A model generated the notes under the pieces. The model made no database searches and was not told the DNA's origin. It worked only from the letters and a program-made list of their open reading frames with translations. Shown here piece by piece: positions 8,701 through 56,955 of a stretch of 63,055 nt of DNA (the first letter of the stretch is position 1; the number at the start of each line of letters is the position of its first letter). The stretch comes from Oxalobacteraceae bacterium (GTDB lineage: Bacteria > Pseudomonadota > Gammaproteobacteria > Burkholderiales > Burkholderiaceae_D): positions 1-63,055 of the forward strand of contig JAIXQK010000092.1 in assembly GCA_027485795.1 (NCBI GenBank), read 5' to 3'. The translations under genes and the position numbers were made by a program.

Positions 8701-8872
8701 GTTCAAAGGTGTGAAGACCGACATGGAACTAAGCTGCAAGGTTTACACCGTGTTTGTGCGCAAGCTAGACCGTCGTGCCGTGGACGTAACCAACGTCGCC
8801 AACCCATTCGGTGTAGCGATAGGCGAAACCGAGGAAGGTGAAGCTGCACCAGAAGCCGAAGCATCGCAGTAA
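5792..8872 (+). CDS. AEP primase fused to DUF927-type helicase
   Basis: The 1026-residue replication protein has an N-terminal archaeo-eukaryotic primase (PrimPol) domain. It shows RLDLD (74-78), SSGEGLHIYYV (the catalytic sGxGxH motif) and the later RPVGTLHPNGK. A Cys-rich segment follows (SCKHP, then TTCERF and CAGC), probably a zinc-binding linker. The C-terminal half is a DUF927-like ATPase with an ESARGKTTA P-loop (G624, K625, T626) and NIMDEMG as Walker B. It should prime and unwind the fork ahead of the phage PolA. It starts nine bases after the HTH gene and ends at a strong terminator. Confidence 0.9.
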   Translation: MNLLDFYKLVLPPVGTYAIFRTSVRSHYWAESLEQLVEITQEHDHHSDVYFATATFKEDGSRTQANVEHLKAFRLDLDAGAVKLAKHGPEKVYEDQPAAISDFLRFTKETGLMPSLVLSSGEGLHIYYVLDDVVTAAEWTPVAKHFNKFAQARELKVDPAVTSDSARILRPVGTLHPNGKTVRVLKATGKTYTLESFANAINYEAELAAPTKGYDLSINDDLLRPEGPPKSLKKVVEHCSAVRWAAANQPQVDEPYWRAMIGIAKHTIEGRRGAHMISCKHPEYDEDVTDAKYDRYGAGPTTCERFAEFNPEACAGCKFRGKVKSPIQLGALNVAEAEKHEESNPTPERAPVKATEHPWDGHIPKDFEVVPTKGGGFTLVYQMRTTKHSETGEEIPVVVPVPFTQSIFWFTHWAEADNSTDTAQVTLYLWTGRTTRSYLMDQSIIASHSKLLEYLSGKAIHTTTHKKASQAMQDYSKALLQRIKEAGKRPRVSDHLGLRILENGELVAAHGKYVIHSSGEIQEGMLSPNLTSVAAQFPLPLPESVTGSWGVEVWDDLNARASQHIDFLRTYYGAQGMERFQLAIMLGLASPLMAFSTGEFHTGSLLPRNSSLSVSLYSRESARGKTTAVMSSILAYGQPAALANDSGRAGTTDNARISRLSIHGTMPNIMDEMGGASAMSVASVVSAVANGASKERAAKDGSLITSPPWALINLMTTNTSQRDMINAIQDTSGAIQYRLLEINVEDMPEYDQKLRERFTSDWSALNRTCTGALGAVIHRAICEIGAVEINELVTKCCVKASELLKSESTGRFQYRGLGAMIAMQLILKKIGMAPFELNPLIETFKVAHDSGNEYVADHVLPTDGLELLSRALQDLTPHTLITRNETHINRNTKTWDEPLNARVPDVVHARHVQLSGITHVSVQAIREWCTEKGVSEREIIRAAKSAGALRMHQTKQRGAVVQLTTSRYNLFKGVKTDMELSCKVYTVFVRKLDRRAVDVTNVANPFGVAIGETEEGEAAPEAEASQ

Positions 8873-8875
8873 GCC

Positions 8876-8897
8876 AAGCCCCCTCGGGGGCTTTCTT
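8876..8897 (+). terminator. Terminator between the convergent arms
   Basis: A perfect stem AAGCCCCC / GGGGGCTT (8876-8883 and 8886-8893) is followed by TTTCTT. It closes the plus-strand arm exactly where the minus-strand late arm ends (stop codon at 8897-8899). The symmetric stem could partly serve both strands. Confidence 0.85.
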
Positions 8898-11800
8898 CAT
8901 TCTGCTGTTAAAGCCTCTACAGCGCCCTTGTTGCTGTCGCGGTACTGGACACCACCCGACGTCCTCGCCTCACGTTTGCGCTGCTCCTGTGGCGCTTTAA
9001 GCAGCTCTGAGAGGGGCTGCTTCTTATACCCGTTGCGTACACGAGCTTCCTGCAGCTTATTCCACTTATCACGCAACTCGGCAGTAGCCTCGGTATCACC
9101 TGAGCGTACCGCCTCGGTGTACCCCCGCTTGATTTCAGAAGTGCGGTTTTTGTAGAACGTGTCGGACTCAAACACCGATGCAGCATTAGCCATACGGTCT
9201 TTGATCGTGCTGGTTGGTGCACCTATTGCCTGACCAAAAATTGCCCCGCCGCTAAGGGCATCAGGTGCAATAAGCACATCCCCGTTACGGTTAGTAACAC
9301 CCTCATTAAAGAAGCGATACGCCTTCATAAAGTTTGCCACACCCGTGGGTAGCATCATCTCAGTGCCCTTCCATTGGTCGCCAGAAGCAAACAGCCCCAT
9401 ACCTTCCCACATCTTACCTACCACGCCACCAACTAGCGGTCCAGAAAGCCCGCGCAGAAGTCCGTTAAAGCCATCCTTCGTCAGTGACAGGTCTGTGTAC
9501 GGCAGCAACGAAAGCATCTGCCCCGCACCAAGACGCTCCCCGAGAGGAACGCCAACTGCTTGCGATACACCACCGTACAGCAGATCAGCCCACTCTTGAC
9601 CCACCTGCTTAATGAGGAACGCACGAGGATCGTTAGGCTCGTCGTCATCACCCACGACGGCTAAAGCGACTGTTGCAGCCAGCCCGATTGGTAGCGCAGA
9701 TGCCCCGCCTACAGCCGCCAATGTCATTGTGTTATACGCCAAAGCCCATTGTGCTGCTGTCTTTTCCGCTGGTGTTGCGCCCGAGAAAGCCTGCCGAATG
9801 AGGCGGGTGTATAAGCTGATTTGGATTAACTGGAACTTACGGAACTGAGTGACAATGCGCCCGAGGTCGGTACGCATAAACCGTGGGTAGTTAAACCCGT
9901 TGTAGTCTCCGTGAGTGTCGTTAATAACAGATGCTGCGTAGTCAGTAGCAGCTTTCTCTGCCATGCCGGAACCTTTGGCTAGACGGTACGCTGCAATTGC
10001 AGTGGTCAGTCGGTTGTAGGTTTCCACGAACTGGGCAGCACCGCGTACCTTTCCCAAAGCAAACTCAACAGCATCACCCACTTTACCCTTACCATCTGAC
10101 TCAAACTTGCCCAACTCATGCTCTAGCTCAATGCTGATAATGCCGCGCTCGGCTAAGTCAGTAACTGCAGCTTTTACATCGTCGGGAAGTTTAAACTCGC
10201 TGTCTAGATCGGCTGTGCCGTTTACGTCCTTGCGTACTTTCCACACTTCACCGTAGGCTTTAGCCATAGCCGATGCCGCTTTACCTAACCCGAACCTACC
10301 GCCCATTGTTGGTACAGACATCATCCACGGCTGCACTGCGTTAACAATGAAGTACGATGGGTTAGACAGCAGCATGTAGTACGAAGAAGTTGCCAGAGCC
10401 TTATCCACGAAGGGGCTTGGGTCGTACACCAGACCCATTGTGTGGCGCTTCATAATCTCGTTGAAGTACCGCTGACGCTCCTCGCGTCCGGGCTTATTAA
10501 CCTTCACTTCCTTCTGCATACTTGCAAGCGCATCGTCCACGCTGGAACCCATTTTCAGGTTAGCGATAAAGTGCGCTGTGCTGCGTCCGTTAGTGGCAAA
10601 GGCTCGCATCATGTCGGTATCTGCACCTACCACATTGCGGCGGTTCATCTCACCCTTACGTGCACTAGACTCAGCCAGCAACTGCAAGTAGAGCTGACGC
10701 ATGGCGTTATCAACGCCTTCACGCGCTTTAGCGCCCTCGCCTTCCATAGAGTCCGATGCCATATTACGCAAGCGACGGAACGCAGACAACATATCCCGAC
10801 CACCCATCATGCTATCGGCTTGGCTCAGACGCTCGAAGTTGTCGGCGTAACCACCATTGCTTGCTGCAAAGGCTGGTACAGCTTCCATCTGAGCCTTGAG
10901 TTGTGCAGCAGCAGCGCGGTTTTCGGCAAAGGCAACTTGGTAGTGGTTGCCGTCCTTCTCCAGCTCCTGCATACGTTTAGAGTCATTAGCGTCTTTAGCG
11001 GCAAGGTACTCTTTAGACATAGCCATGACCACATGATTACCAAAACGGCGCAGGGGTGCATACGGCCAAGCTGCACGTTGGTTCAGTAGTGTCTGGAAGT
11101 CCTGCAGTGACTTAGCCTTTTTAGCCTTCTCACGTTTTGCGCCTTCGGTGTCGCCATCGACTTCAAGCTGAGCAATTACAGCATCGTACTCAGAAGCTAC
11201 GTTCTTGTTCACTTCGGTCTGCATTGCAGTCATGGTTTCGTACCCATGCTTGAACACCTGCTTAATTACCTCTTGTGCCTTATCAGAAATCTTGCGAAAC
11301 TCCTTAGCCATATCTTCGTCGGCTTTAATGCTAGTTCCATCAGCGTTCTTCACCCAGTCCGGTGAGAACGCCCACTTCTTGCTCATAGTAGACTTCATCA
11401 GCAATGCGTTAACAGCAGCACGTTCCGAAGTTGAAAGTTTCTTGAAGTCGGTCACAACCACGCCCACATCACGCTCTGCCTTGGTGCGCTCTACGATAAT
11501 GTCGTTCATGGCTTTCAGGTACTTAGGTGCAGAGTCAAGTACCTTGGATGCAGCACCAATCAGGTCGGTGGTCAACATACCGCGCACCAGTGCCCAGTTG
11601 CCTGTAGCCTTGGCGTTGTCAATGAATGACTGCCAGCGTGGGGTTAGCGCAGCGGCAGCGGGGTTGCCTTTGATGGGTGCGGCTTTGGAGAACGACACCC
11701 TGTTACGGTCGGCAGCCGTCATGGAGCTAACCCGCTGAATGTTCTTGTCGTTGAAGACAACGCGGTTGAATGTTGCGGGTTTACTCAATTTGGCGCGAAT

Positions 11801-14800
11801 ATCCTCAGCCGCTTTTTCAAAGCCCGCTAGCCAATCCTCCCCACTGAGACTTGTACGGCGCATAGTTCCATTTTTTATGTTTTCTATAGACCGTTCTACG
11901 GAGCGCAGTTTTTGTTCAAGTGCCACACGGTCTCGACTGTTCGCGTCTAGGAACGCACTGCCCTTGATACCGATGGAGTCTAGGTACTCGCTGGCGGCTT
12001 TGTAGTATTCCCCGTCTGCTCCGAGGTCACCAAAAGAAACGCCTTCGTTGATGGCGTAGGGCAGAAGGCCCGGGCGCTCATACGTCCCGATAAGTTCTCT
12101 GCCGGTCAGTTCGTCCCAGTCGGCGTTCTTGCGCTCCAAGTAGTCCTCTAGAAATGTGGTGTCCGAGGCGTATTCCCCCACTTCCTTTCTATCTAATACC
12201 GCTCGCAGCTTCTCCAAGGCTTTCTGCACCTTCTCGCTCTGCTTGCCCAACGGTTTGTCCAAGTCCAGCCACTCGTCATCGGCGATGTTGAAGTCCACGC
12301 GCATGAGTGCGCCTTCCAAGGAGCCAGTTGCATCAACCTGATTTTTCTGAGCCACATCTTTAGTGAAGTACCCTTTGGCGATTCCCGGTGCCTGAGCGAA
12401 GTACGACCCCCATCCAAACGCTTGAGCGCCCTCACCGGACCCCATGTACTTGTGGTCAAACCTACGGAATTTAGCAGCAGTGCCGTGAAAAGCACCCGTG
12501 GACTCCAGCTTAGCTGCGCCGTAGGCCATATCTACCACGTTCTGGGCAGTTAGCTTGTCGGGGTTCACTCCGAGCTTGTGCATGGCGGTCTTGAATGCCG
12601 CCCATAGCGTGCGGAACCAGCGACCGAACTCGGTGTTAGACTTGGTAGCAGTGGGATCAACCCCGGCGGCTACGGCTTCCTCGACGAAGTATGCCAGCAG
12701 CTCGGTGTCGGACTGAGTGGCGTCGGTGCCTGCATCCGTCACACGCTGCTGTGCGGCTTGGGCCAGCTTGGACTCCTGAGAGCTGTCGTTATTAGCCGCC
12801 CACTGTTTGACCTTGGCGACTAGCGCTGCGTAGTTGGAATTGCCTAGTAAGTTCTCTAGCCCCAAATGGGACCCGACTTCGTGCATGAACACTGCACGCG
12901 CCTTGCCGGGGGCAATGTTGTCAGCCACCAAGTATGCCTTGCCTCCCACCACAAAACCTTGGACGTCAGCATCAGGGTTGACTGAGCGCTGGATGCCTGT
13001 GGGCAGATCAGATACCGACTGCACGATGACGACCTTGTTACCAAGAGACCCCAAGCGCATGAAGGCGCTTATTTCTTTTGTGATTGCGGCGGCATCAGAA
13101 CCCTCAGACTGTTTCGCTTTGGAATACTTGACTGCGGCTTTATCGGCTTTCTCTTTACCCTTAGCCTTAACTTCTGGTTCAGCTTTCGCACGGGCGTCCT
13201 GAACCCCCTCGGCGGCGGTCTGGAAAGCGTTGGATTCTTCGTAGTTGTCTTCCGCTATCTGGTCAGCCTGATACGCCTCAGCCAAGCTACCTTGCTCGGC
13301 TTCGGTCAGTTTGCTCCAAGGCAACCCCTCACTGTAGTCATTGTCCCACTTAGCCTCAGCAGCTTCCTGCACCTCGACAGGGAAGCTGGCCAGCTTGGTT
13401 TCAGCGTCAGATGCGCGTTCGCGGTTTTCTACTTTGGTGGGTTTCTCGGTAGGTCTGGATTCAGAAAGCTTGGGTCCGGTGCTATCATCCCCGCTTCGGA
13501 GGCCATGTGCAGTATCCTCCCCAGTTCTGCCCTTGACTCCTTGGGCATCGGTTTTCTGAGTGGGTGTCCCGGCGGGTAGTACGTGTATGGAGTCGCTTCC
13601 ACGCTCGAAACTTCGCTGGAGGTCTTTGATGGTTGACTGGTCATTTTGTTCGTGTTCCTCTAACTTGTAAACGGATAAGAGCCATTCTATCTTCGCCTGA
13701 GCCGGAAGGTTGTCAAATGAAGGGGTTGCCTCGCTCTTGTAAAAATCCCAGTCTGCCGCTGCGTTAGCACCTGCGGAAGTAGTTGCCCACTTTGCCAGCG
13801 CATTCATTGTCGCTTTCTGCGCCTCAGCTTTCCGCTTTTCCGCAAAAGCCGCATCGCGCTTAGCCTCGGCTTCATTACGTGCAGCTTCGGCTTTTTCCTC
13901 GTCTGCTTTACGCGCAGCTTCTTTCTCGCGGAGTTTATCAACCCCGGCTTGACCTCCAAGTTTTCGTGCGACACCCTCTTTTTGGATTGCATCTAGGATT
14001 TTTAAAGCGGGCAATATAGCTGCAGGATTGTCTCTAGAATCATCGGAGTCAGAATCTACGCCCCCCGTGCGGTTTCGTTTATCTACTTTACGCGCAACCG
14101 CAGCAAGCACCAGTTCTTGTTGCTTGGCAGAATAGGTAGTGCGCTTTAGTACCTCAGACAGTTTTTCTACCCAAGCGTCACGCGCTTTCACTGCTGCGTG
14201 TATTGATTCAGCGTCGTCTAAGCTCCGGTCTTTCCGAGGGTCGATGCCTGCAGATTTTTCCTTCTGCTCTACCGCAGAGATTACGGTGTCAAGTTCTCGT
14301 TGCGCCCAAACAACCCCCCACGCAGGTTGATTGAGGCCCTTAGCAGATTTCTCCGCACGTTCGTAGTCTTCTGCTTCGACGTCGGAGCGCAGAGTTGCAG
14401 CGCCGTATCCGGGGTCTGAAAGAATCTGCACGAGTGAGCCTACATTCACACCAGTTAGCTTTTCAGTCGCGGTTTTGGGGGTCAGCCCATCGTCGGAGGT
14501 GGAATCGAAGCTATCCGCACTGCCCGCCTCTGGAGCTGAACTCGGCTCGGCTTCGCTATCAACCTCCGCATCAGGAGCAACCACCTCAAAGGCACTATGT
14601 GCCGCTGCGGGTTTTTCTGCCATACTCGCATAGATGCGCCCCAGTGCGTAGTCACTAATGTTGAAGCGGTCAACTGATTGTTGTACCGCCTGTTTTGACA
14701 CCCCTTCCAACGCAGCAACTTCACCATAGCTCTTTGGGGTATGCGCCTGATACAGCCCGCCTTTATCGTCAAGGCCCATCCCAGTAATCGCCATAAAGCG

Positions 14801-16879
14801 GTTAAACATCATGGTATTCCGTGCCGACACCTTCCCCTGCTTATTTGGGCGTTTGAGGCCTGTCATCACATTTTTTAGGTGCTCATGCAGCTCTGCAGAA
14901 GCCGGAAGCGACTTGTTAACCTGCTGCTCCAGTTCAGCCTTTTCTGCTTCAAGCTTCTCGACCAATTTGCCCTTGACACCCTTGGCACCCTCGCCAAGTT
15001 TTTCCAACTGGTGGTCAATAATAGCCAGCCGCGCTCTGGTGCCCTTAGTTGCCTTATGGTTATCCTTAACTCGCGTTGCAACCTCATCGGCACGGTCGGC
15101 TGAAAGCTTAGCGAACCTAGCTTCATCCTCTTTGGTTCTGACTGGTTTGTTAGGCGCTGCCGGTACTACAGGGGCCGCAGTTTCTACTGTTGGCTGCACT
15201 GTGGCGGCATCTTGCTGCGGGCGTTCCAGCTTGCGTTTGTAAGTCACCGTAGGCGCTTTGGGTGCGGGGGGAGCCACAGGCTCGGCTGCTTTGTTTACCG
15301 TTCCTTCTACGGGCGCTACTGGTGCAGCTTGTTCTACCGCAGGTGCAGGAGCCTGTGTTCCGGGCACCTGTAAACCCGACTGGGGCTGCGTTGGTGTGGC
15401 AGGTTGTGCAGCTTGTTCTACCACAGGTGCAGGAGCCATCAGCTCCTCTATGCGGTTAAGCACGGCTTTAGTGGACGCGGCGGGTTTGGTGCCTGTAGCT
15501 CCATTCTCTGCAGCAAGCTTAAGCTCTCCGGCCATGTGAATAAACTGTGCGTCGTCTATCTTGCCGGACTTGTGTAACTCAACCAAGTTTTTGTAGGGTG
15601 CAACGTATTTATCTACTGACTTACGGGCAGACTCGTTTATAGGGTTTCCGTTGGCATCAAGCTCAACTCCGAAGGCTTCGTGAACCTCGCGGGTTTCTGC
15701 CCGTAAGCGCTCCGCTTCGGCTGCAATGGCTGCGGCTCGCTCTTTAGCTAAAGCCTGCTCCTGCGCTAATATTCCAGCGCGACGTTGTACGTCCTCGATA
15801 GCAGTTTCAGGGGTCTCAAAGTAAGTCTCTGGGTCCGGCACCATGTTGCCCGACGGTGCGGAGACAGCGGCTTCAAACTGTTTTTCATAGTCCTTACCGG
15901 CATAAGGAGTCCGGTTAAGCCCAAAATGCTCGTTGATAAAGTCTTTCGTTGGGACCCGTAACCCTAACGGCTCTTGACCGCCAAGCACGTCCACCGAGTT
16001 GTTAGGGTCTGCCAATGGCGCTGCGGAGGGTCGGGGCATACTCAAGCCAGTAACCCCACCAAACACACCACCTAATAGTGCACCGCCAATAGCGGATTCT
16101 CGGAACGCCTCGGCTGAGCGCTCGTTATAAAAGTCTTCACTAGGGTCAACCGACATACGCCCAAGCTGGTTCATGCCCTCTTGGAACGGCTCAGTGATAC
16201 CTTCGGTCAGCGCACCTTTGCCCATAGCCGCACCCGCACGAGCGGCTACGCCTTTCATGCCAACCATTTCGTCTAGGTACTTAGCACCCACATTATCTAA
16301 CGCGCTTACGCCAGTGCTACCAAAACCACGCAGCGATCTAGTTGCTGCCATGCGTCCTAAAGACCCACCAATACCCAGTAACGCATCAGCAGCGCCATAA
16401 GCCGCACCTAGAGGCGCAGCGGTAAGAAGATTAGTTTCACCCGCTTGTTCGCGCTGGTTCCCTAAAACGTCAGAGGTGCCGAGTACAGAACCCGCAGCTA
16501 AAGCGCCGGGGGCACCACCTACAAGACCTCCACCAATAATACCTAGCATATAAGGCGCAGAAGTTAGCGCCAGATTACCAGCGTAACGAGCAGCATCCAT
16601 CGCCCCGTCAACGTCTTTGTAGCTACGGATAGCGCCAGATTCATCAATCTTTCGGTCCATCACGTCGGCATCAAGCTGATTATCTAGCCGCGCATCACGG
16701 AAGTACCCACCTAAACTAGTTCTGCCCGCAACTGCCTCGCCCAGCCCGTATAGCCCACCCTGCATACGGTCTGTTGCAGCGGATAATTTATCTATTGCGC
16801 TGCCGGACTTCGTAGTGTCCCGCACCTGCAGTGGGTCAATCGACGCCAGAAAACCTTCCGGGTTATATTCGTATGGCAT
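8897..16879 (-). CDS. Giant polyvalent ejection protein (metallopeptidase, ADP-ribosyltransferase, LPD-type C-terminus)
   Basis: The 2660-residue protein starts with a Gly/Ala-rich hydrophobic region (about 85-280). Pro/Ala linkers with a repeated peptide lie around 480-560, and an HTH-like segment SYGEVAALEGVSKQAVQQSV is near 714-735. Highly charged helices then lead to a metallopeptidase-like HEVGSH (from 1333). At about 1465 an ART domain begins: FHGTAAKF, then GSGEGAQAFGWGSYF, the signature of ADP-ribosyltransferases of polyvalent proteins. The C-terminus (about 2300-2620) has QFRKFQLIQ and hydrophobic helices typical of large-polyvalent-protein-associated domains. Such proteins travel in the virion and enter the host with DNA. 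It is the last late gene, next to two other ejection-type proteins. Confidence 0.85.
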   Translation of the reverse strand: MPYEYNPEGFLASIDPLQVRDTTKSGSAIDKLSAATDRMQGGLYGLGEAVAGRTSLGGYFRDARLDNQLDADVMDRKIDESGAIRSYKDVDGAMDAARYAGNLALTSAPYMLGIIGGGLVGGAPGALAAGSVLGTSDVLGNQREQAGETNLLTAAPLGAAYGAADALLGIGGSLGRMAATRSLRGFGSTGVSALDNVGAKYLDEMVGMKGVAARAGAAMGKGALTEGITEPFQEGMNQLGRMSVDPSEDFYNERSAEAFRESAIGGALLGGVFGGVTGLSMPRPSAAPLADPNNSVDVLGGQEPLGLRVPTKDFINEHFGLNRTPYAGKDYEKQFEAAVSAPSGNMVPDPETYFETPETAIEDVQRRAGILAQEQALAKERAAAIAAEAERLRAETREVHEAFGVELDANGNPINESARKSVDKYVAPYKNLVELHKSGKIDDAQFIHMAGELKLAAENGATGTKPAASTKAVLNRIEELMAPAPVVEQAAQPATPTQPQSGLQVPGTQAPAPAVEQAAPVAPVEGTVNKAAEPVAPPAPKAPTVTYKRKLERPQQDAATVQPTVETAAPVVPAAPNKPVRTKEDEARFAKLSADRADEVATRVKDNHKATKGTRARLAIIDHQLEKLGEGAKGVKGKLVEKLEAEKAELEQQVNKSLPASAELHEHLKNVMTGLKRPNKQGKVSARNTMMFNRFMAITGMGLDDKGGLYQAHTPKSYGEVAALEGVSKQAVQQSVDRFNISDYALGRIYASMAEKPAAAHSAFEVVAPDAEVDSEAEPSSAPEAGSADSFDSTSDDGLTPKTATEKLTGVNVGSLVQILSDPGYGAATLRSDVEAEDYERAEKSAKGLNQPAWGVVWAQRELDTVISAVEQKEKSAGIDPRKDRSLDDAESIHAAVKARDAWVEKLSEVLKRTTYSAKQQELVLAAVARKVDKRNRTGGVDSDSDDSRDNPAAILPALKILDAIQKEGVARKLGGQAGVDKLREKEAARKADEEKAEAARNEAEAKRDAAFAEKRKAEAQKATMNALAKWATTSAGANAAADWDFYKSEATPSFDNLPAQAKIEWLLSVYKLEEHEQNDQSTIKDLQRSFERGSDSIHVLPAGTPTQKTDAQGVKGRTGEDTAHGLRSGDDSTGPKLSESRPTEKPTKVENRERASDAETKLASFPVEVQEAAEAKWDNDYSEGLPWSKLTEAEQGSLAEAYQADQIAEDNYEESNAFQTAAEGVQDARAKAEPEVKAKGKEKADKAAVKYSKAKQSEGSDAAAITKEISAFMRLGSLGNKVVIVQSVSDLPTGIQRSVNPDADVQGFVVGGKAYLVADNIAPGKARAVFMHEVGSHLGLENLLGNSNYAALVAKVKQWAANNDSSQESKLAQAAQQRVTDAGTDATQSDTELLAYFVEEAVAAGVDPTATKSNTEFGRWFRTLWAAFKTAMHKLGVNPDKLTAQNVVDMAYGAAKLESTGAFHGTAAKFRRFDHKYMGSGEGAQAFGWGSYFAQAPGIAKGYFTKDVAQKNQVDATGSLEGALMRVDFNIADDEWLDLDKPLGKQSEKVQKALEKLRAVLDRKEVGEYASDTTFLEDYLERKNADWDELTGRELIGTYERPGLLPYAINEGVSFGDLGADGEYYKAASEYLDSIGIKGSAFLDANSRDRVALEQKLRSVERSIENIKNGTMRRTSLSGEDWLAGFEKAAEDIRAKLSKPATFNRVVFNDKNIQRVSSMTAADRNRVSFSKAAPIKGNPAAAALTPRWQSFIDNAKATGNWALVRGMLTTDLIGAASKVLDSAPKYLKAMNDIIVERTKAERDVGVVVTDFKKLSTSERAAVNALLMKSTMSKKWAFSPDWVKNADGTSIKADEDMAKEFRKISDKAQEVIKQVFKHGYETMTAMQTEVNKNVASEYDAVIAQLEVDGDTEGAKREKAKKAKSLQDFQTLLNQRAAWPYAPLRRFGNHVVMAMSKEYLAAKDANDSKRMQELEKDGNHYQVAFAENRAAAAQLKAQMEAVPAFAASNGGYADNFERLSQADSMMGGRDMLSAFRRLRNMASDSMEGEGAKAREGVDNAMRQLYLQLLAESSARKGEMNRRNVVGADTDMMRAFATNGRSTAHFIANLKMGSSVDDALASMQKEVKVNKPGREERQRYFNEIMKRHTMGLVYDPSPFVDKALATSSYYMLLSNPSYFIVNAVQPWMMSVPTMGGRFGLGKAASAMAKAYGEVWKVRKDVNGTADLDSEFKLPDDVKAAVTDLAERGIISIELEHELGKFESDGKGKVGDAVEFALGKVRGAAQFVETYNRLTTAIAAYRLAKGSGMAEKAATDYAASVINDTHGDYNGFNYPRFMRTDLGRIVTQFRKFQLIQISLYTRLIRQAFSGATPAEKTAAQWALAYNTMTLAAVGGASALPIGLAATVALAVVGDDDEPNDPRAFLIKQVGQEWADLLYGGVSQAVGVPLGERLGAGQMLSLLPYTDLSLTKDGFNGLLRGLSGPLVGGVVGKMWEGMGLFASGDQWKGTEMMLPTGVANFMKAYRFFNEGVTNRNGDVLIAPDALSGGAIFGQAIGAPTSTIKDRMANAASVFESDTFYKNRTSEIKRGYTEAVRSGDTEATAELRDKWNKLQEARVRNGYKKQPLSELLKAPQEQRKREARTSGGVQYRDSNKGAVEALTAE
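15322..15437 (-). repeat. 32-bp direct repeat in linker of the polyvalent protein
   Basis: Bases 15322-15353 and 15406-15437 are identical except for one position. The offset is 84 bp, so the repeat is in frame and encodes two copies of an APAPVVEQAA-like Pro/Ala peptide. It reflects an internal duplication that changes linker length without a frameshift. Confidence 0.8.
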
Positions 16880-47746: not shown

Positions 47747-48101
47747 CGGGTTCCTCTAGATCGGCATTGATCGCCATTAGCTGGCTTGGGGATAGCACAG
47801 GTAGGTTCTCTACGGCATCAATAGTGACCGGAGCTTTGACGGACTCGACCTGTACGGCACCACCATTGATGATGAAGTTAAACACCGGCAGGTTATCTGC
47901 TGCGTCTTTTTTGTTGTCCACCTTCCACCCGAGAGCATCGACACCGAATGCCACCATTTTGCGGAGTTGCTCGGGGTCACGGCTACCGTGGATTACATCT
48001 TGAAGGTCGCTTAACGCTCTAAACGTGACGAGCTTTAGCGACTCAAGGAACGCTTCCTTTTCGGTATCGGTCTGCTGTGTTGTGGCGGGAAGTGTAGTCA
48101 T
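47739..48101 (-). CDS. Putative terminase small subunit
   Basis: The 120-residue protein is mostly helical, with AFLESLKLVTFRALSDLQDV and a C-terminal beta/acidic segment ending LEEPDA. It is the first late gene, overlaps terL by eight bases and has its own promoter. Size and position fit TerS; no specific HTH family is recognised. Confidence 0.65.
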   Translation of the reverse strand: MTTLPATTQQTDTEKEAFLESLKLVTFRALSDLQDVIHGSRDPEQLRKMVAFGVDALGWKVDNKKDAADNLPVFNFIINGGAVQVESVKAPVTIDAVENLPVLSPSQLMAINADLEEPDA

Positions 48102-48108
48102 GGGGCGT

Positions 48109-48137
48109 ATTTTATGCTTACGTGCTTACTTATGCAA
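48109..48137 (-). promoter_or_regulatory. Late-arm promoter with operator motif (terminase)
   Basis: Minus strand: -35 TTGCAT (48132-48137), a 17-bp spacer AAGTAAGCACGTAAGCA carrying the motif, and -10 TAAAAT (48109-48114). The start point falls only a few bases before the TerS ATG (48101), implying a short or near-leaderless message. It would launch the whole minus-strand arm. Confidence 0.72.
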
Positions 48138-48208
48138 GCTGAGGGGGACGGTGTTAGCTCAGTTGACGTTAAGTTTTGAAAATTGGGTTCCACTCAGAGC
48201 GGGACTTA

Positions 48209-48270
48209 AGGCCCCACCCCCCGCCGCCACTGCGCTTGTCCCACCCCCCCTACCCCCCTGCCAGCCCAAA
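48209..48270 (-). other. G-quadruplex-type tract in the inter-arm region
   Basis: The minus strand has runs of 6, 7, 3, 6 and 4 guanines within about 60 bases, enough for at least one G3+ quadruplex. It lies 70 bp upstream of the terminase promoter in the gene-free region between the two transcription arms. A role in origin firing, packaging-site recognition or polymerase pausing is possible. No gene is seen in 48138-48926. Confidence 0.6.
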
Positions 48271-48307
48271 AGTGCCTATTTTTTAAGCAGATTAAGGTCA
48301 AATGGTT

Positions 48308-48430
48308 GACGCTATCCATAGGGTGAAGGAAGGCTCATCGTAGCGTCCTGACTAGGCTCGGTAACGGGTCAAAGCCTAGCGGCTTGCCACAGCGTGTAGT
48401 TTGTGGCATTGAGTAACGTGTAGTCTACTC
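48308..48430 (+). ncRNA. Chain of stem-loops in gene-free region (candidate structured RNA or origin)
   Basis: Consecutive inverted repeats are GACGCTA/TAGCGTC (48308-48314, 48341-48347), CTAGGCT/AGCCTAG (48352-48358, 48373-48379), GCCACA/TGTGGC (48386-48391, 48402-48407) and GAGTA/TACTC (48411-48415, 48426-48430). More weak stems follow to about 48610. None overlaps a credible reading frame. Four adjacent stems in 123 bases suggest a folded RNA or a protein-binding DNA region. The strand, promoter and function are not known. The TAACGTGTAG stretch at 48413-48422 resembles half an operator. Confidence 0.4.
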
Positions 48431-48763
48431 ACCGCATATAGGGGCTGTAGTCGTTCATTAACAACATATTAAAGCCTCTTGCATTGTGTGCAAACACCTT
48501 GCAGGACGTAGCAGACGATTGTTACCCAGTCAAGATGCAATCATTTGGTCTTATAGGGGCTGGCAAGCCACACACATTCAATGCTGGACATTGCGTGTAT
48601 GTGGGACACCTTGGCGGCTGGAATTGAAATCCGAATGTAATAAATGCACTTGAATGACGGGACATAGACTGCGAGGGTAAACCGACATGAAGGAACCCTA
48701 GACACGATACCAACGATATGGGTCGTATATTTTCCTAGCGGGTAACTGCTGGAATAGTTTTGA

Positions 48764-48785
48764 CACGGTTTGTAGAGTAACCGTG
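48764..48785 (+). promoter_or_regulatory. Inverted repeat with TTGACA in the early leader
   Basis: CACGGTT/AACCGTG (48764-48770, 48779-48785) overlaps a TTGACA at 48760-48765. No good -10 lies 17 bp downstream. It could be an operator for early transcription of the 48927 gene. Confidence 0.35.
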
Positions 48786-48833
48786 TGCCGATAACCCTCG
48801 GTGCAAATAAGGCGCCCTCCTTGGGGCGATAGA

Positions 48834-48856
48834 AAACCCTCTATTCGAGGGGGTTT
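48834..48856 (+). other. Leader hairpin before the 48927 gene
   Basis: AAACCCTCT pairs with the following GAGGGGGTTT side, about nine pairs including one G-T, with a five-base loop and a short T run. It could be a weak terminator or leader structure 70 bases upstream of the first plus-strand gene. Confidence 0.45.
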
Positions 48857-48926
48857 GAATGTAGGCATTGCTTCCAGTGTCTACACCAAAGCCTATTTAC
48901 TTACTTACTTATTTTTGGAGTTCACT

Positions 48927-49343
48927 ATGACCGAAGTTACCAACTTTTTTACAACCTTACAACCCGTTTCTTACTCGACAAAGGCGGGTAAGCAAAAAAC
49001 CGCCCATAACGAAATTTCGCAGGCACTTATGCCAGCGGCAATCAGGAAAGCGCAGGCTTCCAGCCAAGCGCTGGAATCTCTAAAGCGGGGCGTGTATCGC
49101 CCCACACTGGCGGCTATTGCCGGGCTAATGACCAAAGGGGACATTAAGTCCCTCAAATCATTCGGCGTTATGCCGAGCGACAACCCTACCAAGAAAGAGG
49201 TGGTTCACTTTCTGAACTGCATCGCCACGAACTGGAGTGAAGCCAAAGGCGAGAAAGCCGCACAAGCGGCATTGTGCCGCGAATTTGTTAAGTGGACTGA
49301 GGCTAAGCCAGTACAGCAGGCTGAGGCTGCAATAGCGGCATAA
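48927..49343 (+). CDS. First gene of the early arm, unknown function
   Basis: The 138-residue protein is taken from the ATG at 48927 with GGAG seven bases upstream; the frame is open further upstream but without a start signal. It is helical and basic (YSTKAGKQKTAHNEISQALM, then AIRKAQASSQALESLKRGVY). It ends in an Ala-rich helix. It has its own TTACTTACTT-type leader and a terminator directly behind it, so it is expressed as a single unit. Its placement next to the CTAG array makes it a candidate array-binding protein, which is speculative. Confidence 0.65.
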   Translation: MTEVTNFFTTLQPVSYSTKAGKQKTAHNEISQALMPAAIRKAQASSQALESLKRGVYRPTLAAIAGLMTKGDIKSLKSFGVMPSDNPTKKEVVHFLNCIATNWSEAKGEKAAQAALCREFVKWTEAKPVQQAEAAIAA

Positions 49344-49350
49344 GGGTATG

Positions 49351-49374
49351 GGCACTCGCTAGAGTGCCTAAAAA
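49351..49374 (+). terminator. Terminator after the 48927 gene
   Basis: A perfect stem GGCACTC-GCTA-GAGTGCC (49351-49368) is followed by TAAAAA on this strand. The T tract is absent on the plus strand, so it is better regarded as a strong hairpin or an incomplete terminator. It lies eight bases behind the stop codon. Confidence 0.5.
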
Positions 49375-49384
49375 CGCACGATTT

Positions 49385-49750
49385 CTAGATAATCTAGGTA
49401 GAAAAATTACTAGCTTTTCTAGAACGTGTCTTTTTGGGCACTATTGTGCACTATTGTGGAAACAATAGTCACTTTAGTTAAGTAAGATAATCTAGTAAAT
49501 CTAGTAATACTAGTAAATATAGGCATTTTAAGATAAGCAGAAATATTAGATTTCATAAAACCTAGGGTAAACCCTAGGTAGGCTCTAAAATACGTTTCTA
49601 ATATTCTTGCTTATCGTTTGAAACCTAGGATTACTAGCTTAACTAGGATTTCTAAGGGTAAACCCTTATGGTTTTAGCCCACTTAGTGTCATCTGGGTGT
49701 CCAACTACTAGATTAACTAGAATTCTAGAAAATCTAGGTGCCGACCCTAG
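49385..49750. repeat. CTAG array, mostly 9-bp periodic (candidate origin or partition/operator array)
   Basis: Seventeen CTAG tetramers start at 49385, 49394, 49410, 49419, 49492, 49501, 49510, 49562, 49574, 49625, 49634, 49643, 49708, 49717, 49725, 49734 and 49747. Most neighbours are exactly nine bases apart, giving CTAG-N5 units with AT-rich spacers arranged in clusters of two to four. The region is gene-free and AT-rich and carries palindromes ACTATTGT-GGAA-ACAATAGT (49450-49469), ACCTAGGGT-AA-ACCCTAGGT (49560-49579) and TAAGGGT-AA-ACCCTTA (49653-49668). Tandem tetramer half-sites of this kind are bound cooperatively by small repressors or initiators. No reading frame of note exists in 49344-49868. 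Confidence 0.8.
49532..49615. repeat. Nested long inverted repeat within the CTAG array
   Basis: A 19-bp arm, 49532-49550 (starting GATAAGCAGAAATATTAGA), pairs with 49597-49615 with two adjacent mismatches. It encloses the perfect 9-bp palindrome at 49560-49579. The two-tier structure could extrude as a cruciform or fold as an RNA. Confidence 0.75.
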
Positions 49751-49764
49751 CAACCCCGTTCCCC

Positions 49765-49797
49765 AAGCCACTGCCTAAACCTCGGTGGCTTTTTCGT
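49765..49797 (+). terminator. Terminator at the right edge of the CTAG array
   Basis: The stem AAGCCAC/GTGGCTT (49765-49771, 49785-49791) is followed by TTTTCG. No protein gene ends upstream within 400 bases. If it is used, it must end a non-coding transcript that starts inside the array or reads through from 49343. Confidence 0.7.
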
Positions 49798-49868
49798 TTC
49801 CGTATCAAAAACTGATGCGGTAATTCCTGTGCCGTAACAGGCACCACTTAATCACTTAGGAAGTCAAA

Positions 49869-50459
49869 ATGAAAATCGTTTTCAAACTTAACCGTGAGCA
49901 GGCGGCTCGTGCCGCTGCGCTCGTATCGAGAGTAGCGGCTGAGATAGCCGCATCTGTAGAGTGGGTTGAGGAGTACAACAGTTCTTGGCACTTGGTGGAG
50001 GCTGGCAACCTCCACGCCATCTACCTGCAGCAAAACAACAGCAACCAGCACTTAGCTCTGGATAAGTGGAATTACCTCACCTACCGAGGTGAGCGTTGCC
50101 CCTTTGTGTGTGACGGTGCGCGGTGCAACCTGATGGAAATCCTGTCAGGTGACAGGACGAGCACAGAGTACGAAAGATTCGTACCCGCTGAGTACGAAAC
50201 ATCCGACACCCGCCTCATGTGGTGGGAAACACTGAGCGACTATATGCTCACACGTGCCACGCTGCCTGAACGGGCAGCACACATGCTGGCAACGGCAGAC
50301 CGCCACGGTCTGCCTTGCATCCCAACGCTGGAGAACATGCTGGGCGTAAAGCTCAGCAAAAATGTGAGGGCGCTATATGCGTCTTATGACAGCAGCCTAG
50401 CAACACTGTTGGCGGCGCTCGTAGAGCGCTCAGTAAAAGACAACGGAGCGCTAGCATGA
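49869..50459 (+). CDS. Early protein of unknown function
   Basis: The 196-residue protein has a helical N-terminus (LNREQAARAAALVSRVAAEI) and a beta/aromatic middle with two Cys (ERCPFVCDGARCNLMEIL, three Cys in all). A helical C-terminal half follows. Leader hairpins CCTGT/ACAGG and CCG-ATC/GAT-CGG lie before its start. It is followed by two genes joined through ATGA overlaps. No family recognised. Confidence 0.65.
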   Translation: MKIVFKLNREQAARAAALVSRVAAEIAASVEWVEEYNSSWHLVEAGNLHAIYLQQNNSNQHLALDKWNYLTYRGERCPFVCDGARCNLMEILSGDRTSTEYERFVPAEYETSDTRLMWWETLSDYMLTRATLPERAAHMLATADRHGLPCIPTLENMLGVKLSKNVRALYASYDSSLATLLAALVERSVKDNGALA

Positions 50460-50755
50460 AAGTAATCCCTTTCAAAGATGCGACCTTCACGGTCGCCGAC
50501 GCCGTAAAGGCAAACGCTCTACGCGATTGCGTAGAGCTGATGTACCTGTGGTGTGCTGATTACAGGGCGCACTATGAACTGTATGGGGAGGCACACCCCA
50601 TACTTCGCCGGGTCTGGGGGGGCGACATTGATGCCATGGTGGCATCCACCCACGGGCTGGAGGATGAGATTGCGTCGATGCATGCGGGTACCATGTACTC
50701 GCACTACGACAGCGAGACAAAGCAATTTAATTGCTGGTGGGAGGTACACCAATGA
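50456..50755 (+). CDS. Early protein of unknown function
   Basis: The 99-residue protein overlaps the previous stop as ATGA. It is helical with many His, Tyr and Trp residues (LMYLWCADYRAHYELYGEAH). No recognised domain. It is translationally coupled to both neighbours. Confidence 0.6.
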   Translation: MKVIPFKDATFTVADAVKANALRDCVELMYLWCADYRAHYELYGEAHPILRRVWGGDIDAMVASTHGLEDEIASMHAGTMYSHYDSETKQFNCWWEVHQ

Positions 50756-50916
50756 CCTCATTTATTAACATACAGCAGGGACAATCGTTCCGCTGGAATG
50801 GCGGCACCTTCACAAAAGTGGGCGGTGCCGTGGCGATGCACAATGCGAGCGCTCGTCAGTGGCGCTTCACACCCACCGACAGAGTTCAACCGCTTCCTCC
50901 AAAAAAGGAACGGTAA
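50752..50916 (+). CDS. Small early protein
   Basis: The 54-residue frame starts with an ATG overlapping the previous stop (ATGA) and GGGAGG upstream. It begins MTSFINIQQGQSFRWNGGTF and ends in a basic tail PLPPKKER. No family recognised. It closes the unit before the promoter at 50931. Confidence 0.55.
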   Translation: MTSFINIQQGQSFRWNGGTFTKVGGAVAMHNASARQWRFTPTDRVQPLPPKKER

Positions 50917-50930
50917 AAACTCCGCTCATG

Positions 50931-50952
50931 TAACGTGTAAGCACGTTATACT
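50931..50952 (+). promoter_or_regulatory. Operator palindrome with -10 (amidoligase operon)
   Basis: TAACGTG-TAAG-CACGTTA (50931-50948) is a perfect 18-bp palindrome whose right arm merges with TATACT (50947-50952). The hexamer 17 bp upstream is a poor -35. The site precedes a 150-base leader and the amidoligase gene. Confidence 0.7.
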
Positions 50953-51022
50953 ACGACACCCTGAAAGCTCTCGCTAACGGGGTTGAAAGCCACTGCCCTA
51001 ACATCTAGGTGCAGTAAAACGT

Positions 51023-51040
51023 GCCGCATACCCATGCGGC
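51023..51040 (+). other. Leader hairpin before the amidoligase gene
   Basis: A perfect stem GCCGCAT-ACCC-ATGCGGC is followed by TTCGTCATTG. An ACTGC/GCAGT stem (50992-51015) lies just before it. The two hairpins in the 150-base leader suggest an attenuator or leader regulator. The AAGCCACTGCC element at 50987-50997 also occurs at 49765-49775. Confidence 0.5.
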
Positions 51041-51061
51041 TTCGTCATTGCTTCATGCCAA

Positions 51062-51073
51062 GTAAGCATGTAA
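51062..51073 (+). promoter_or_regulatory. Second operator motif in the amidoligase leader
   Basis: GTAAGCATGTAA matches the motif core and is followed by the AT-rich stretch AACTTATTTATATATTTAC. With the palindrome at 50931 it gives a two-site arrangement in front of one gene. Confidence 0.5.
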
Positions 51074-51104
51074 GCAACTTATTTATATATTTACAGGAAA
51101 CACC

Positions 51105-52562
51105 ATGTTCTCCACAAACAACTCGGTGCAGGCGCAAGAGCGCCGCAGCAGAATAAACTCCATTCTGAGGCACACACCCCGTGCCGCCCGCCTCCCATAC
51201 CTCAACCAACCAATCCCCCTCGACCGATGGGCAACCAGCGCATCAAAGCAGAACTCCCAGCGCGAGTTCTACGCTGAATTTGCGCAGATGGTGCGGCAAC
51301 GCATCAAGGGTGAGGTTTATGGTCAGGACTTCGTGGAGTTATTTAACAAGTGGGGGTCGTACCCCTACAACATAAACGGATACATAAAGTTGGCGTTAAA
51401 AAGCGCCAACAGCGACCTCTCGTACTCCGACGAAATCGAAGTAACTCTCTGTGACTGCGGGCACTGGGAAGAAGACTCCGAAGTGGTCGAAGACCACGAC
51501 GGCGACAGCTACTGCATGGCATGCGCAGAAGACCTCGTTTGGGCGTACACCGAACGCGGTAATGAGGTGCGTATGCACCCCAATGACGCCTATTATTGGG
51601 ATTCAGACGACGCGTATCACACATACGCAGAGCCAGAGGAAGACGAGGACGAAGACGAGGACGAAGACGAGGACTGCGAAGCGGAAGGTGCCCACCGCCT
51701 CCGTTCATGGGGTTCCAGCACCGGCAGCCTGAACCACGATACAAACACCCCAATCCCCATGGGGGTTGAGCTTGAAGTAGCGTGCAATCCAAATTACTTG
51801 GACGACTGCATATCTAACGCAGAACGTACATTCTGCAGAAACAACAATGGTATGCTGAAAAGGGATGGCAGCTTGCCAGAGGACTACGAATTCTGGGGAT
51901 TTGAAATCGTGACTGCAGCCAAGTCGCTGCAGCATCACATCAAGGTCTTCGGTGAGTGGGAACCCGACTCCGCACTCCGAGCATGGCAAGTGCCGGACGC
52001 ATGCTGCGGCATGCACATACACGTTGACAGTAAAGCATTTACTGCAATGAGTCTTGGTAAATTTATCGCGTTCATCAATAACGACTACAACACGCAGTTC
52101 ATTAAAGGAATTGCGGGTCGCCACGCTCGGACAGACTCCAAAGCGTCCACCTATGCAGCAACGTCCCACACAGGGGATGCGCTGCCTGCCAAGGCACTAA
52201 AGGGTAGCCACCACAGCCGCTATCGTGCGGTGAACCTCGTTAACCTATCCTACCAAGAGATGCGTAGGTTAAAAATCGAGAACGTCAGCCGCGACTGCAA
52301 GGGCAACTATTCAACGGTGGAACTGCGGATATTCCGCGCCACCTTGAAGAAGGAGCGCTTGTTAGCGCAGATTGAATTTACCCACGCATTAGTTACCTAC
52401 TGCAAAGTGGGTGCCTATCATGCCCTAGGGCATGAGCATTTCACGGCTTGGCTACGCACCGGAGATGGTGCACCCTACAAGCATCTCCGCAAATGGTTAG
52501 GCATAACAGTGCCTAAACAACGTGCAGGAACTACTGCACCCAGACCAACGGCAGAGGTCTAA
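51105..52562 (+). CDS. Amidoligase-like enzyme (glutamine-synthetase-fold COOH-NH2 ligase)
   Basis: The 485-residue protein has an N-terminal helical domain and a zinc-binding-like part (CDCGHWEED and later CMACAE). An acidic tract follows, then a C-terminal catalytic domain with the motif order of phage amidoligases: GVELE (220-224), GFEIVTAAKSL, CGMHIHVD (H304, H306), RAVNLVNL and ELRIFRAT (E406, R408, R411). Such ligases use ATP to join a carboxylate to an amine on a peptide, protein or small molecule. It sits directly before a class II glutamine amidotransferase, suggesting a two-step pathway. Substrate unknown. Confidence 0.8.
   Translation: MFSTNNSVQAQERRSRINSILRHTPRAARLPYLNQPIPLDRWATSASKQNSQREFYAEFAQMVRQRIKGEVYGQDFVELFNKWGSYPYNINGYIKLALKSANSDLSYSDEIEVTLCDCGHWEEDSEVVEDHDGDSYCMACAEDLVWAYTERGNEVRMHPNDAYYWDSDDAYHTYAEPEEDEDEDEDEDEDCEAEGAHRLRSWGSSTGSLNHDTNTPIPMGVELEVACNPNYLDDCISNAERTFCRNNNGMLKRDGSLPEDYEFWGFEIVTAAKSLQHHIKVFGEWEPDSALRAWQVPDACCGMHIHVDSKAFTAMSLGKFIAFINNDYNTQFIKGIAGRHARTDSKASTYAATSHTGDALPAKALKGSHHSRYRAVNLVNLSYQEMRRLKIENVSRDCKGNYSTVELRIFRATLKKERLLAQIEFTHALVTYCKVGAYHALGHEHFTAWLRTGDGAPYKHLRKWLGITVPKQRAGTTAPRPTAEV
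51639..51674 (+). repeat. Triplicated 12-bp repeat encoding an acidic tract
   Basis: Three tandem copies of GAAGACGAGGAC encode alternating Glu/Asp in the linker of the amidoligase. Because the unit is 12 bp, copy-number changes alter the linker length without breaking the frame. Confidence 0.85.
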
Positions 52563-56271: not shown

Positions 56272-56955
56272 ATGATATGTAACATTTGCGGGGGCGAATA
56301 TGTATCGCTTGGAGTACACCTCCGACATAAACACAAGATTTCCCCGTCAGACTACAAGGAGGAGTATGGACTGTTATTAGGTACTCCGCTTGTTGATGAC
56401 TGGTTATCAGAGCGACTGCGTGTGAGTCAACAATCACGGTTAAAAGACTCGGAATACAAAGCCGAAGTTATCGAAAAGTGCCGGTCAAATGCCATGAAAA
56501 AAGTAGGCAAACCCGGTGCTGGTATGACACGGGCAGGCAAGGAGTCCATAGCCAAGAGAAACACCGCTCAAAATGATATGTATTTGGCTGAGCAAACCGC
56601 CGCTGTTGCTAGTGTTTTGCGTGAAAAAGGAACGCTGCAGGATGTTAGAAAAGCACTAGGCACTGGCGCACCAGCAGCAAAGAAGATAGCGAAACTCGCA
56701 GGCGTTGACTACACAGCGGAGTCGGCAAAGGCTGAACGGGACAAACGCGCAGCCGCCACTATCAGAGCAAAAGCAGCAGCGCGGGTAGCCAAAGTAATGC
56801 CTTACTACGACACCACAAAAAGCGCAGCAGAAATGTGTAGACGTGCCGGTATCAGCGTCAAGACTTACAAAAACTGGCTTGCTGCTGGCTTAATTCCAAG
56901 GCACCCAAACGGGCGGTACATGCGCCCCATTAAAACCAAGGAGAAAAACACATGA
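56272..56955 (+). CDS. MucR/Ros-type zinc-finger regulator with C-terminal HTH
   Basis: The 227-residue protein starts with a Ros/MucR-like finger: CNICGGEYVSLGVHLRHKHK, then SPSDYKEEYGL. Its C-terminal HTH is SAAEMCRRAGISVKTYKNWL (about residues 181-200), with a long Ala/Lys-rich helix between. Ros/MucR proteins bind AT-rich promoters. It is the best candidate in the early arm for a global regulator of the dispersed operator motif; this is inference. Confidence 0.7.
   Translation: MICNICGGEYVSLGVHLRHKHKISPSDYKEEYGLLLGTPLVDDWLSERLRVSQQSRLKDSEYKAEVIEKCRSNAMKKVGKPGAGMTRAGKESIAKRNTAQNDMYLAEQTAAVASVLREKGTLQDVRKALGTGAPAAKKIAKLAGVDYTAESAKAERDKRAAATIRAKAAARVAKVMPYYDTTKSAAEMCRRAGISVKTYKNWLAAGLIPRHPNGRYMRPIKTKEKNT

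Follow-up and report, generated by a model that had tools for sequence, protein, structure and literature searches.

What is the function of a run of CTAG tetramers, many of them exactly 9 bp apart, in a gene-free part of a phage genome? The array lies in the window, by which we mean the whole stretch of DNA analysed (63,055 bp), and a sequence-only reading had offered three candidates for it: a replication origin, a partition-like site or a repressor-loading array. Here we explore the array and the matching locus in related phages. We consider it probable, at roughly 0.6, that the stretch 49344-49868 is the replication origin of the phage, made up of phased iteron arms and a melting core, with a primase-DUF927 helicase as its most likely binder. 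The origin candidate gained from the recurrence of the phase in relatives, from the position of the least stable DNA and from a helicase of the SaPI Rep kind, whereas the partition and repressor candidates lost ground, since no ribbon-helix-helix (RHH) gene was found in the window contig.

The phage genome and its relatives

The ends of the contig form an exact repeat of 119 bp, hence the contig probably is the complete circular map of a phage of ~62.9 kb. Near 48.1-48.9 kb two gene arms diverge. The late arm, with TerL and portal, is on the minus strand; the plus strand holds the early and replication genes, which include a weak amidoligase match, ThyX, a MazG-like protein, DNA polymerase, exonuclease, a tyrosine recombinase, an SNF2 helicase and a primase-helicase of 1026 aa. 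The array stretch measures 525 bp (49344-49868) and sits 3' of the first early gene and before the second. It adjoins the place where the two arms diverge and precedes the replication genes; the array is 1.3 kb from the gene before TerL. Two plus-strand genes are required for the argument:

48927-49343, plus strand: first early gene, 138 aa, with homologs in L013, L014, L087 and L088; no PHROG or Pfam match
5792-8872, plus strand: 1026-aa primase and DUF927 helicase, proposed initiator (Pfam, PHROG, PDB and a C-terminal model)

Cumulative GC skew, suggested earlier as a check on origin function, has its minimum near 54 kb and its maximum near 4 kb, close to each other on the circle, and shows no clean two-turn pattern. 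No tRNA was found in the window, and Rfam gave nothing at gathering score (three sub-threshold hits at E <= 1). The tyrosine recombinase (977-2038) is ~40% conserved in three relatives and lies inside the replication module; it could serve genome resolution rather than lysogeny.

Portal relatives were found in 36 of 50,697 named phage records, all of them distant: Rhizobium phage RHph_TM3_14A is 38.7% identical, and Roseobacter, Pelagibacter and HMO-2011 phages are ~24-30% identical. The DNA of 48300-51100 shows no similarity to named phages. Viral contigs yielded 351 portal relatives, of which the best 80 were used, the top one being 75% identical. The relatives compared below bear L numbers. 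Among genomes of the host family, TerL at E 1e-20 was found in the phage's own genome only (1/392) and portal in its own and one other at 26% identity (2/97). An alignment search of genome contigs with TerL gave one relative (29%).

The array and its phase

All 17 CTAG sites claimed for 49385-49750 were recovered when their positions were recounted (49385, 49394, 49410, 49419, 49492, 49501, 49510, 49562, 49574, 49625, 49634, 49643, 49708, 49717, 49725, 49734 and 49747), and an 18th lies at 49359, just outside. The description of the region as gene-free and palindrome-rich also holds, as 49344-49868 is without an ORF of at least 70 aa (ATG or GTG start) and contains numerous inverted repeats. 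Its parts are:

49344-49868, no strand: gene-free AT-rich stretch, GC 0.38, lag-9 z 4.3, proposed replication origin region
49385-49397, minus strand: cluster A1, 2 CTAG at 9 bp, orientation by eye from the flanks
49410-49422, plus strand: cluster A2, 2 CTAG at 9 bp, orientation by eye
49461-49560, no strand: least stable 100 bp of the whole 63-kb window (nearest-neighbour energy scan, 10-bp steps), proposed melting region (DUE)
49492-49513, minus strand: cluster B, inner arm, 3 CTAG at 9 bp, forming inverted repeat I2 with cluster C (79% over 29 nt), orientation by eye
49560-49579, no strand: central palindrome ACCTAGGGT-AA-ACCCTAGGT, from the sequence, 2 CTAG at 12 bp, array centre at 49569.5
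49625-49646, plus strand: cluster C, inner arm opposite B, 3 CTAG at 9 bp, orientation by eye
49708-49720, plus strand: cluster D1, 2 CTAG at 9 bp, orientation by eye
49725-49737, minus strand: cluster D2, 2 CTAG at 9 bp, 8 bp past the last D1 box, orientation by eye
49747: single extra box beyond D2, from the list of CTAG positions

Exact 9-bp steps make up eight of the 16 successive intervals, the others being 8, 12, 13, 16, 51, 52, 65 and 73 bp; the 9-bp phasing that had been reported is thus real, but it concerns half of the sites' intervals and not most of them. In simulations of 49344-49868 (5000 for each Markov order) at most 1, 2 and 3 CTAG pairs at 9 bp were obtained with orders 0, 1 and 2, respectively, and 100,000 random placements of 18 sites gave at most five, against the eight observed. 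Self-match of the stretch at lag 9 ranks first among lags 5-15 (shuffle p 0.002). CTAG-N5-CTAG occurs at eight sites in the window, every one inside the array; CTAG-N5-CTAG-N5-CTAG occurs at two sites in the 3.24-Mb assembly that contains the window, both in the array, versus one site for the reversed control pattern.

The number of sites is less extreme than their spacing. At least 17 CTAG were reached in 4.3% of the order-2 simulations, none of which matched the phase, so phasing rather than CTAG number is the strong signal. The earlier emphasis on CTAG scarcity was not confirmed, the word being only mildly depleted in the window (169 versus 234 expected from dinucleotide shuffles). That the array is a product of chance, or an AT-rich spacer without function, would fit the raw count, but a phase that no simulation reached and that recurs in relatives makes this hardly credible.

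The flanks of the boxes suggest a unit TTACTAGATT, read on the minus strand in A1, B and D2 and on the plus strand in A2, C and D1 (14 boxes, by eye). With 49569.5, the midpoint of the central palindrome, as axis, 12 of the 17 boxes have a mirror partner to within 1 bp; this symmetry is suggestive only, because 4.4% of trials in which the places of intact clusters were shuffled equalled it (conditional P 0.044).

Tandem CTAG half-sites at an 8-bp step are known from trp operators, to which the array had been likened. Tandem CTAG is a shared trait, but the step in the array is 9 bp (eight such steps versus one of 8 bp) and the units of relatives mostly do not contain CTAG, so that the likeness does not carry far.

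The gene-free stretch between the arms of the window (48307-48800) has lag 11 on top, weakly (1.7), as have L012, L013 (3.7), L014 and L099; perhaps this signal corresponds to bent promoter DNA. Terminator-like hairpins number 12 in 48000-51200, versus 3.7 expected.

The 9-bp step at the matching locus

In 14 loci the 9.5 kb upstream of TerL were scanned for gene-free stretches of 280 bp or more; three loci (L007, L021 and L094) yielded none. The second such stretch from TerL was taken as the array stretch (in the window there are three), except in L009, where it was the last of three; its distance from TerL is 1.6 to 6.8 kb. Only for L013, L014, L087 and L088 was a homolog of the first early gene confirmed in the flank. 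L013/L087 and L014/L088 are near copies, hence only L013 and L014 were counted, and the relatives share ancestry. The stretch of L014 was trimmed to 2626-3290 and that of L007 was chosen by hand, since masking of ORFs concealed it.

Of lags 5-15, lag 9 gave the strongest signal in nine of 11 loci, versus none of 11 for the stretch nearer to TerL. When L007 and RHph_TM3_14A were added, lag 9 came first in 9/13 stretches and shuffle p was at most 0.05 in 11/13, the exceptions being L007 (p 0.057) and RHph_TM3_14A (p 0.69). Mean z across the 13 stretches reached 2.59 at lag 9 and did not exceed 1.08 at any of the others, with individually weak values (1.4-1.9) in L007, L009, L091 and L098. In an earlier blind test, directed at the GC minimum upstream of the g51105 homolog in 25 loci including near copies, lag 9 was on top in eight.

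The repeated unit differs from phage to phage. By eye or by marking of lag-9 matches, the units at the 9-bp step are CTTGCTTCA in L012, AATAACGCG in L013, TTTACTATA in L014, GAATCAAGA in L007, TGCGTAATC/T in L170 and L092, AAAACCGAT/AAAACCAAT in L096 and AGCGGGGCT in L022. Only L007 and L012 have a nearly equal unit (GAATCAAGA and GAAGCAAGA, by eye). The sequence-only reading had named related phages without phased CTAG as evidence against it, and conserved spacing despite divergent sequence as a check: the outcome is divided, as the CTAG word is for the most part absent from the units of the relatives, but the 9-bp phase is kept. The step is thus conserved at the matching locus and the word is not; spacing rather than word seems to matter.

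L013 and L087 are instructive in this respect. Up to and including the first early gene (6292 bp) they are 99.5% identical, and past the array ~85%. Each 9-bp unit of the two arrays is made of an AAT-containing 5-mer common to both and a 4-mer that differs between them; the arms of L087 are nearly complementary save for one extra 9-bp unit, whereas those of L013 pair poorly with the phase kept (by eye). This favours phased protein binding over a required hairpin. The fall in identity from 99.5% to ~85% occurs at the array (L087 6292-6596), and likely marks a recombination boundary between late-arm and early-arm modules. In L014 (1-800) and L088 (2906-3520) many GTGTAAC/GTTACAC words occur besides the 9-bp units, GTTACA being present 11 times in 600 bp of L014.

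The 9-bp step is not universal: more distant relatives contributed 117 gene-free stretches, of which 25 had lag 8 on top, 19 lag 12 and 17 lag 9. Some of the strongest are arms that repeat every 8 bp, for example CAATTAGA in L042 and ATTGGATA in L024, and this step is found in other branches of the phage group (L042, L024, L032 and L064). L042 (4050-4900) also shows several copies of a palindrome like CACACTACCCGCTAGTGTG among its 8-bp-step arms; these are perhaps a second kind of site, a repressor operator. The cultured and more distant RHph_TM3_14A resembles the window in gene order and carries, at the corresponding position, a 1027-aa gene that is 17% identical to the primase-helicase of the window (residues 1-900); its AT-rich stretch is present but the 9-bp phase is absent (z9 -0.5). 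Four gene-free stretches of HMO-2011 showed no 9-bp phase (z9 0.1-1.3).

Proposed melting core and folding

Repeats next to the most easily melted DNA of a region are the classical anatomy of an iteron origin. As in the window, the least stable 100-bp window of the locus (12-22 kb each) falls in the array stretch in ten of 11 relatives; in L096 the best window of the array stretch ranks second of 1155 for low stability. For RHph_TM3_14A the scan covered 44.4 of 60.9 kb, and its minimum of stability falls in the gene-free stretch at the matching place.

Single-strand folding of 49344-49868 is far stronger than that of shuffles (z -7.35 as DNA, -8.8 as RNA), and the RNA values of 11 relatives' stretches range from -3.5 to -12.5. 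Such values would suit an origin of the structure type, in which a stem-loop extruded from the long inverted repeat is recognised rather than boxes. Such recognition has been proposed for pRN1, a plasmid, and for phages whose proteins are of the primase-helicase-winged-helix type; excerpts of PMC4234260 describe for such proteins a stem-loop that is conserved although its sequence is little conserved. However, L007, L012, L013, L166, L167 and L169 (-3.5 to -5.5) are little beyond two coding controls (-3.8 and -4.2), and the arms of L013 differ in their 4-mers and stay in phase although they pair poorly. We therefore regard recognition of structure as quite unlikely, and prefer boxes that are bound in phase.

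Regulator, partition and packaging

Arrays of short boxes are coated by the RHH proteins MetJ, CopG and ParG, at a step of about 7-9 bp, and the CopG operator consists of short boxes with AT-rich spacers, repeated at less than one helical turn. A small phage regulator, for instance of the RHH type, could in a similar way coat the boxes and control the early genes downstream, which would be in line with the 8-9 bp step, with the position of the array between the first and second early genes and with RHH-like genes that immediately follow the array in L012 and L091, although both score below the Pfam cut-off. A search of viral contigs for relatives of the L012 RHH protein gave its own record only.

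The distribution of RHH genes argues against such a regulator. Three profiles detected none in the window contig: PF01402 at E 0.1, whose two hits in the assembly fall on other contigs, PF03869, and an HMM made from seven relatives (best E 0.79). This weakens both the repressor and the partition reading, although a very divergent RHH protein may have escaped these profiles. PF01402 hits (E 0.1) were present in 4/12 and 7/18 virus records and, apart from L012 and L091, lie away from the array: slightly before TerL in L024, L026, L032, L042, L043 and L078, and before a gene that by eye resembles a GIY-YIG endonuclease in L013, L087 and L167. Furthermore, the RHH proteins of L013 and L087 differ by one residue although the arrays differ, no sigma-70-like promoter was found in 48000-51200 (3.1 expected), and a regulator leaves the coincidence of the window's least stable 100 bp with the array unexplained. 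Control of early genes by such a protein is unlikely on these grounds. The small RHH proteins near TerL and those near the GIY-YIG-like gene are of similar look.

Packaging sites are usually located in or beside the TerS gene. The array is close enough to the gene before TerL for a pac or cos site to be considered, but an early gene intervenes. As a partition centromere the array would resemble parH, the centromere of ParG, which in excerpts of PMC7308502 likewise has short boxes, AT-rich spacers and a step below one helical turn. ParG and CopG systems have an RHH protein, however, and no such gene was found in the window contig. Nor was a ParA-like match obtained among the 30 window proteins scanned with Pfam, nearly all of them from the early arm and few from the late arm. 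We judge a partition or packaging site to be very improbable.

A candidate initiator

The origin reading requires a binder, for which the protein encoded by 5792-8872 is the most likely candidate. It has PHROG primase/helicase matches and matches PDB 5dgk, the SCCmec helicase Cch, by sequence (E 5.2e-7); its Pfam match to DUF927 is exactly at cut-off, and in homologs the domain was found in 4/4 (best E 8.1e-10). Homologs of the primase-helicase were detected in 6/14 records and 3/15 others, many of the remaining records being fragments. The last 286 residues were modelled with AlphaFold2 from four sequences (mean pLDDT 63.9; in the helix-helix-sheet part, block means of 72-92 for model residues 161-230 and 59 for 231-240). 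A fold search with this model ranked 8tch, the SaPIbov1 initiator, first (E 7.7e-4; TM-scores 0.26 and 0.16; 12.3 A rmsd) and 5dgk second (E 6.7e-3), the next chain having E 0.2. Since the modelled segment includes part of the helicase, the 8tch match speaks for family more than for DNA binding. The element encodes a helicase of the SaPIbov1 Rep / Cch family.

Identity to homologs is lowest in block 961-1020. The homolog of L012 is 25% identical to the window protein in residues 925-995 and 46% in residues 1-900. Over the C-terminal block L007 and L012, the pair with nearly equal units, are 48% identical, versus 16-25% in the five other pairs among the window, L007, L012 and L022; co-variation of unit and C-terminal block is weak evidence, because it concerns one pair that is itself the closest overall (55% versus 32-46% over residues 1-900).

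The first early gene was considered as binder and rejected: its product differs by one residue between L013 and L087 although the arrays differ, and its model is weak (best of five 67.7, others 38-54) with no fold match at E <= 0.001.

On the origin reading, the following course of events can be proposed. Early expression would provide the primase-helicase. The clusters of CTAG boxes, which point in opposite directions and keep the 9-bp step, would act as iterons around the AT-rich core, and C-terminal domains, predicted to be winged-helix-like, would seat on boxes 9 bp apart, with several subunits per arm. By analogy with SaPI Rep, two rings would then load at either side of the core, open the duplex and depart, upon which the fused primase may start strands for the phage DNA polymerase. 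The array, its phase, the low stability of its core, the recurrence of the step with other units in relatives and the family of the helicase are observations; origin function, binding by this protein and the loading of two rings are inferences.

A more general proposal is tentative, and we lean towards doubting it: the phages may share a class of origin in which mainly geometry is selected, with one subunit per 9 bp, opposed arms and a melting core, a word that drifts with the C-terminal domain and an 8-bp step in other branches. If so, step length would be a lineage-specific property of the initiator ring. Should the origin reading itself be right, an origin is located and an initiator named for a broad phage group, the one represented by the portal relatives in viral contigs; a phage primase-helicase is linked to initiators of staphylococcal islands; and a simple test becomes available of whether an origin is specified by spacing rather than by word identity.

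Comparison with known origins

SaPI origins combine an AT-rich melting region with element-specific units. In excerpts of PMC7581432 the DUF927 protein Cch is related to SaPIbov1 Rep, and SaPI Rep recognises an iteron origin, which lies directly downstream of rep, via its C-terminal domain. The array resembles these origins in being a series of short repeats and in having an easily melted AT-rich region along with them, and the helicase of the phage is by fold of the family of SaPIbov1 Rep (8tch). It differs in that the helicase gene starts ~19 kb away around the circle; because of this position the element is not classed as a SaPI-type origin and is set apart as a variant of iteron origins, a known kind. 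Moreover, SaPIs are satellite islands, and here a phage has its primase fused to the helicase. SCCmec Cch (5dgk) is of the same DUF927 helicase family as the window protein.

Cch2 belongs to another helicase family. Its binding, as given in the same excerpts, needs a 23-bp direct-repeat region with three 5-nt iterons; a 9-bp step would fit this length (5+9+9=23). The putative Cch2 origin thus has three iterons in one block, versus 17 boxes and opposed arms in the array.

The stem-loop origin of pRN1 and the stem-loop of phage BIP-1, described together in excerpts of PMC4234260, involve a protein of the primase-helicase-winged-helix type, to which the candidate initiator would correspond, and share with the array an inverted repeat that is kept by place and not by sequence. 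Their helicase is of SF3 and the origin is directly downstream of the gene, whereas the phage has a DUF927 helicase and phased boxes. Searches of open-licence papers on origins of HMO-2011-type phages or DUF927 phages, with PMC9038755 and PMC5862659 among them, gave no description of the element.

Two further proteins of the genome may be mentioned. The product of 56272-56955 has a Ros/MucR-type match together with weak C-terminal MerR/helix-turn-helix matches, and at the end of the late arm the minus strand carries an ORF of 2660 aa (8897-16879).
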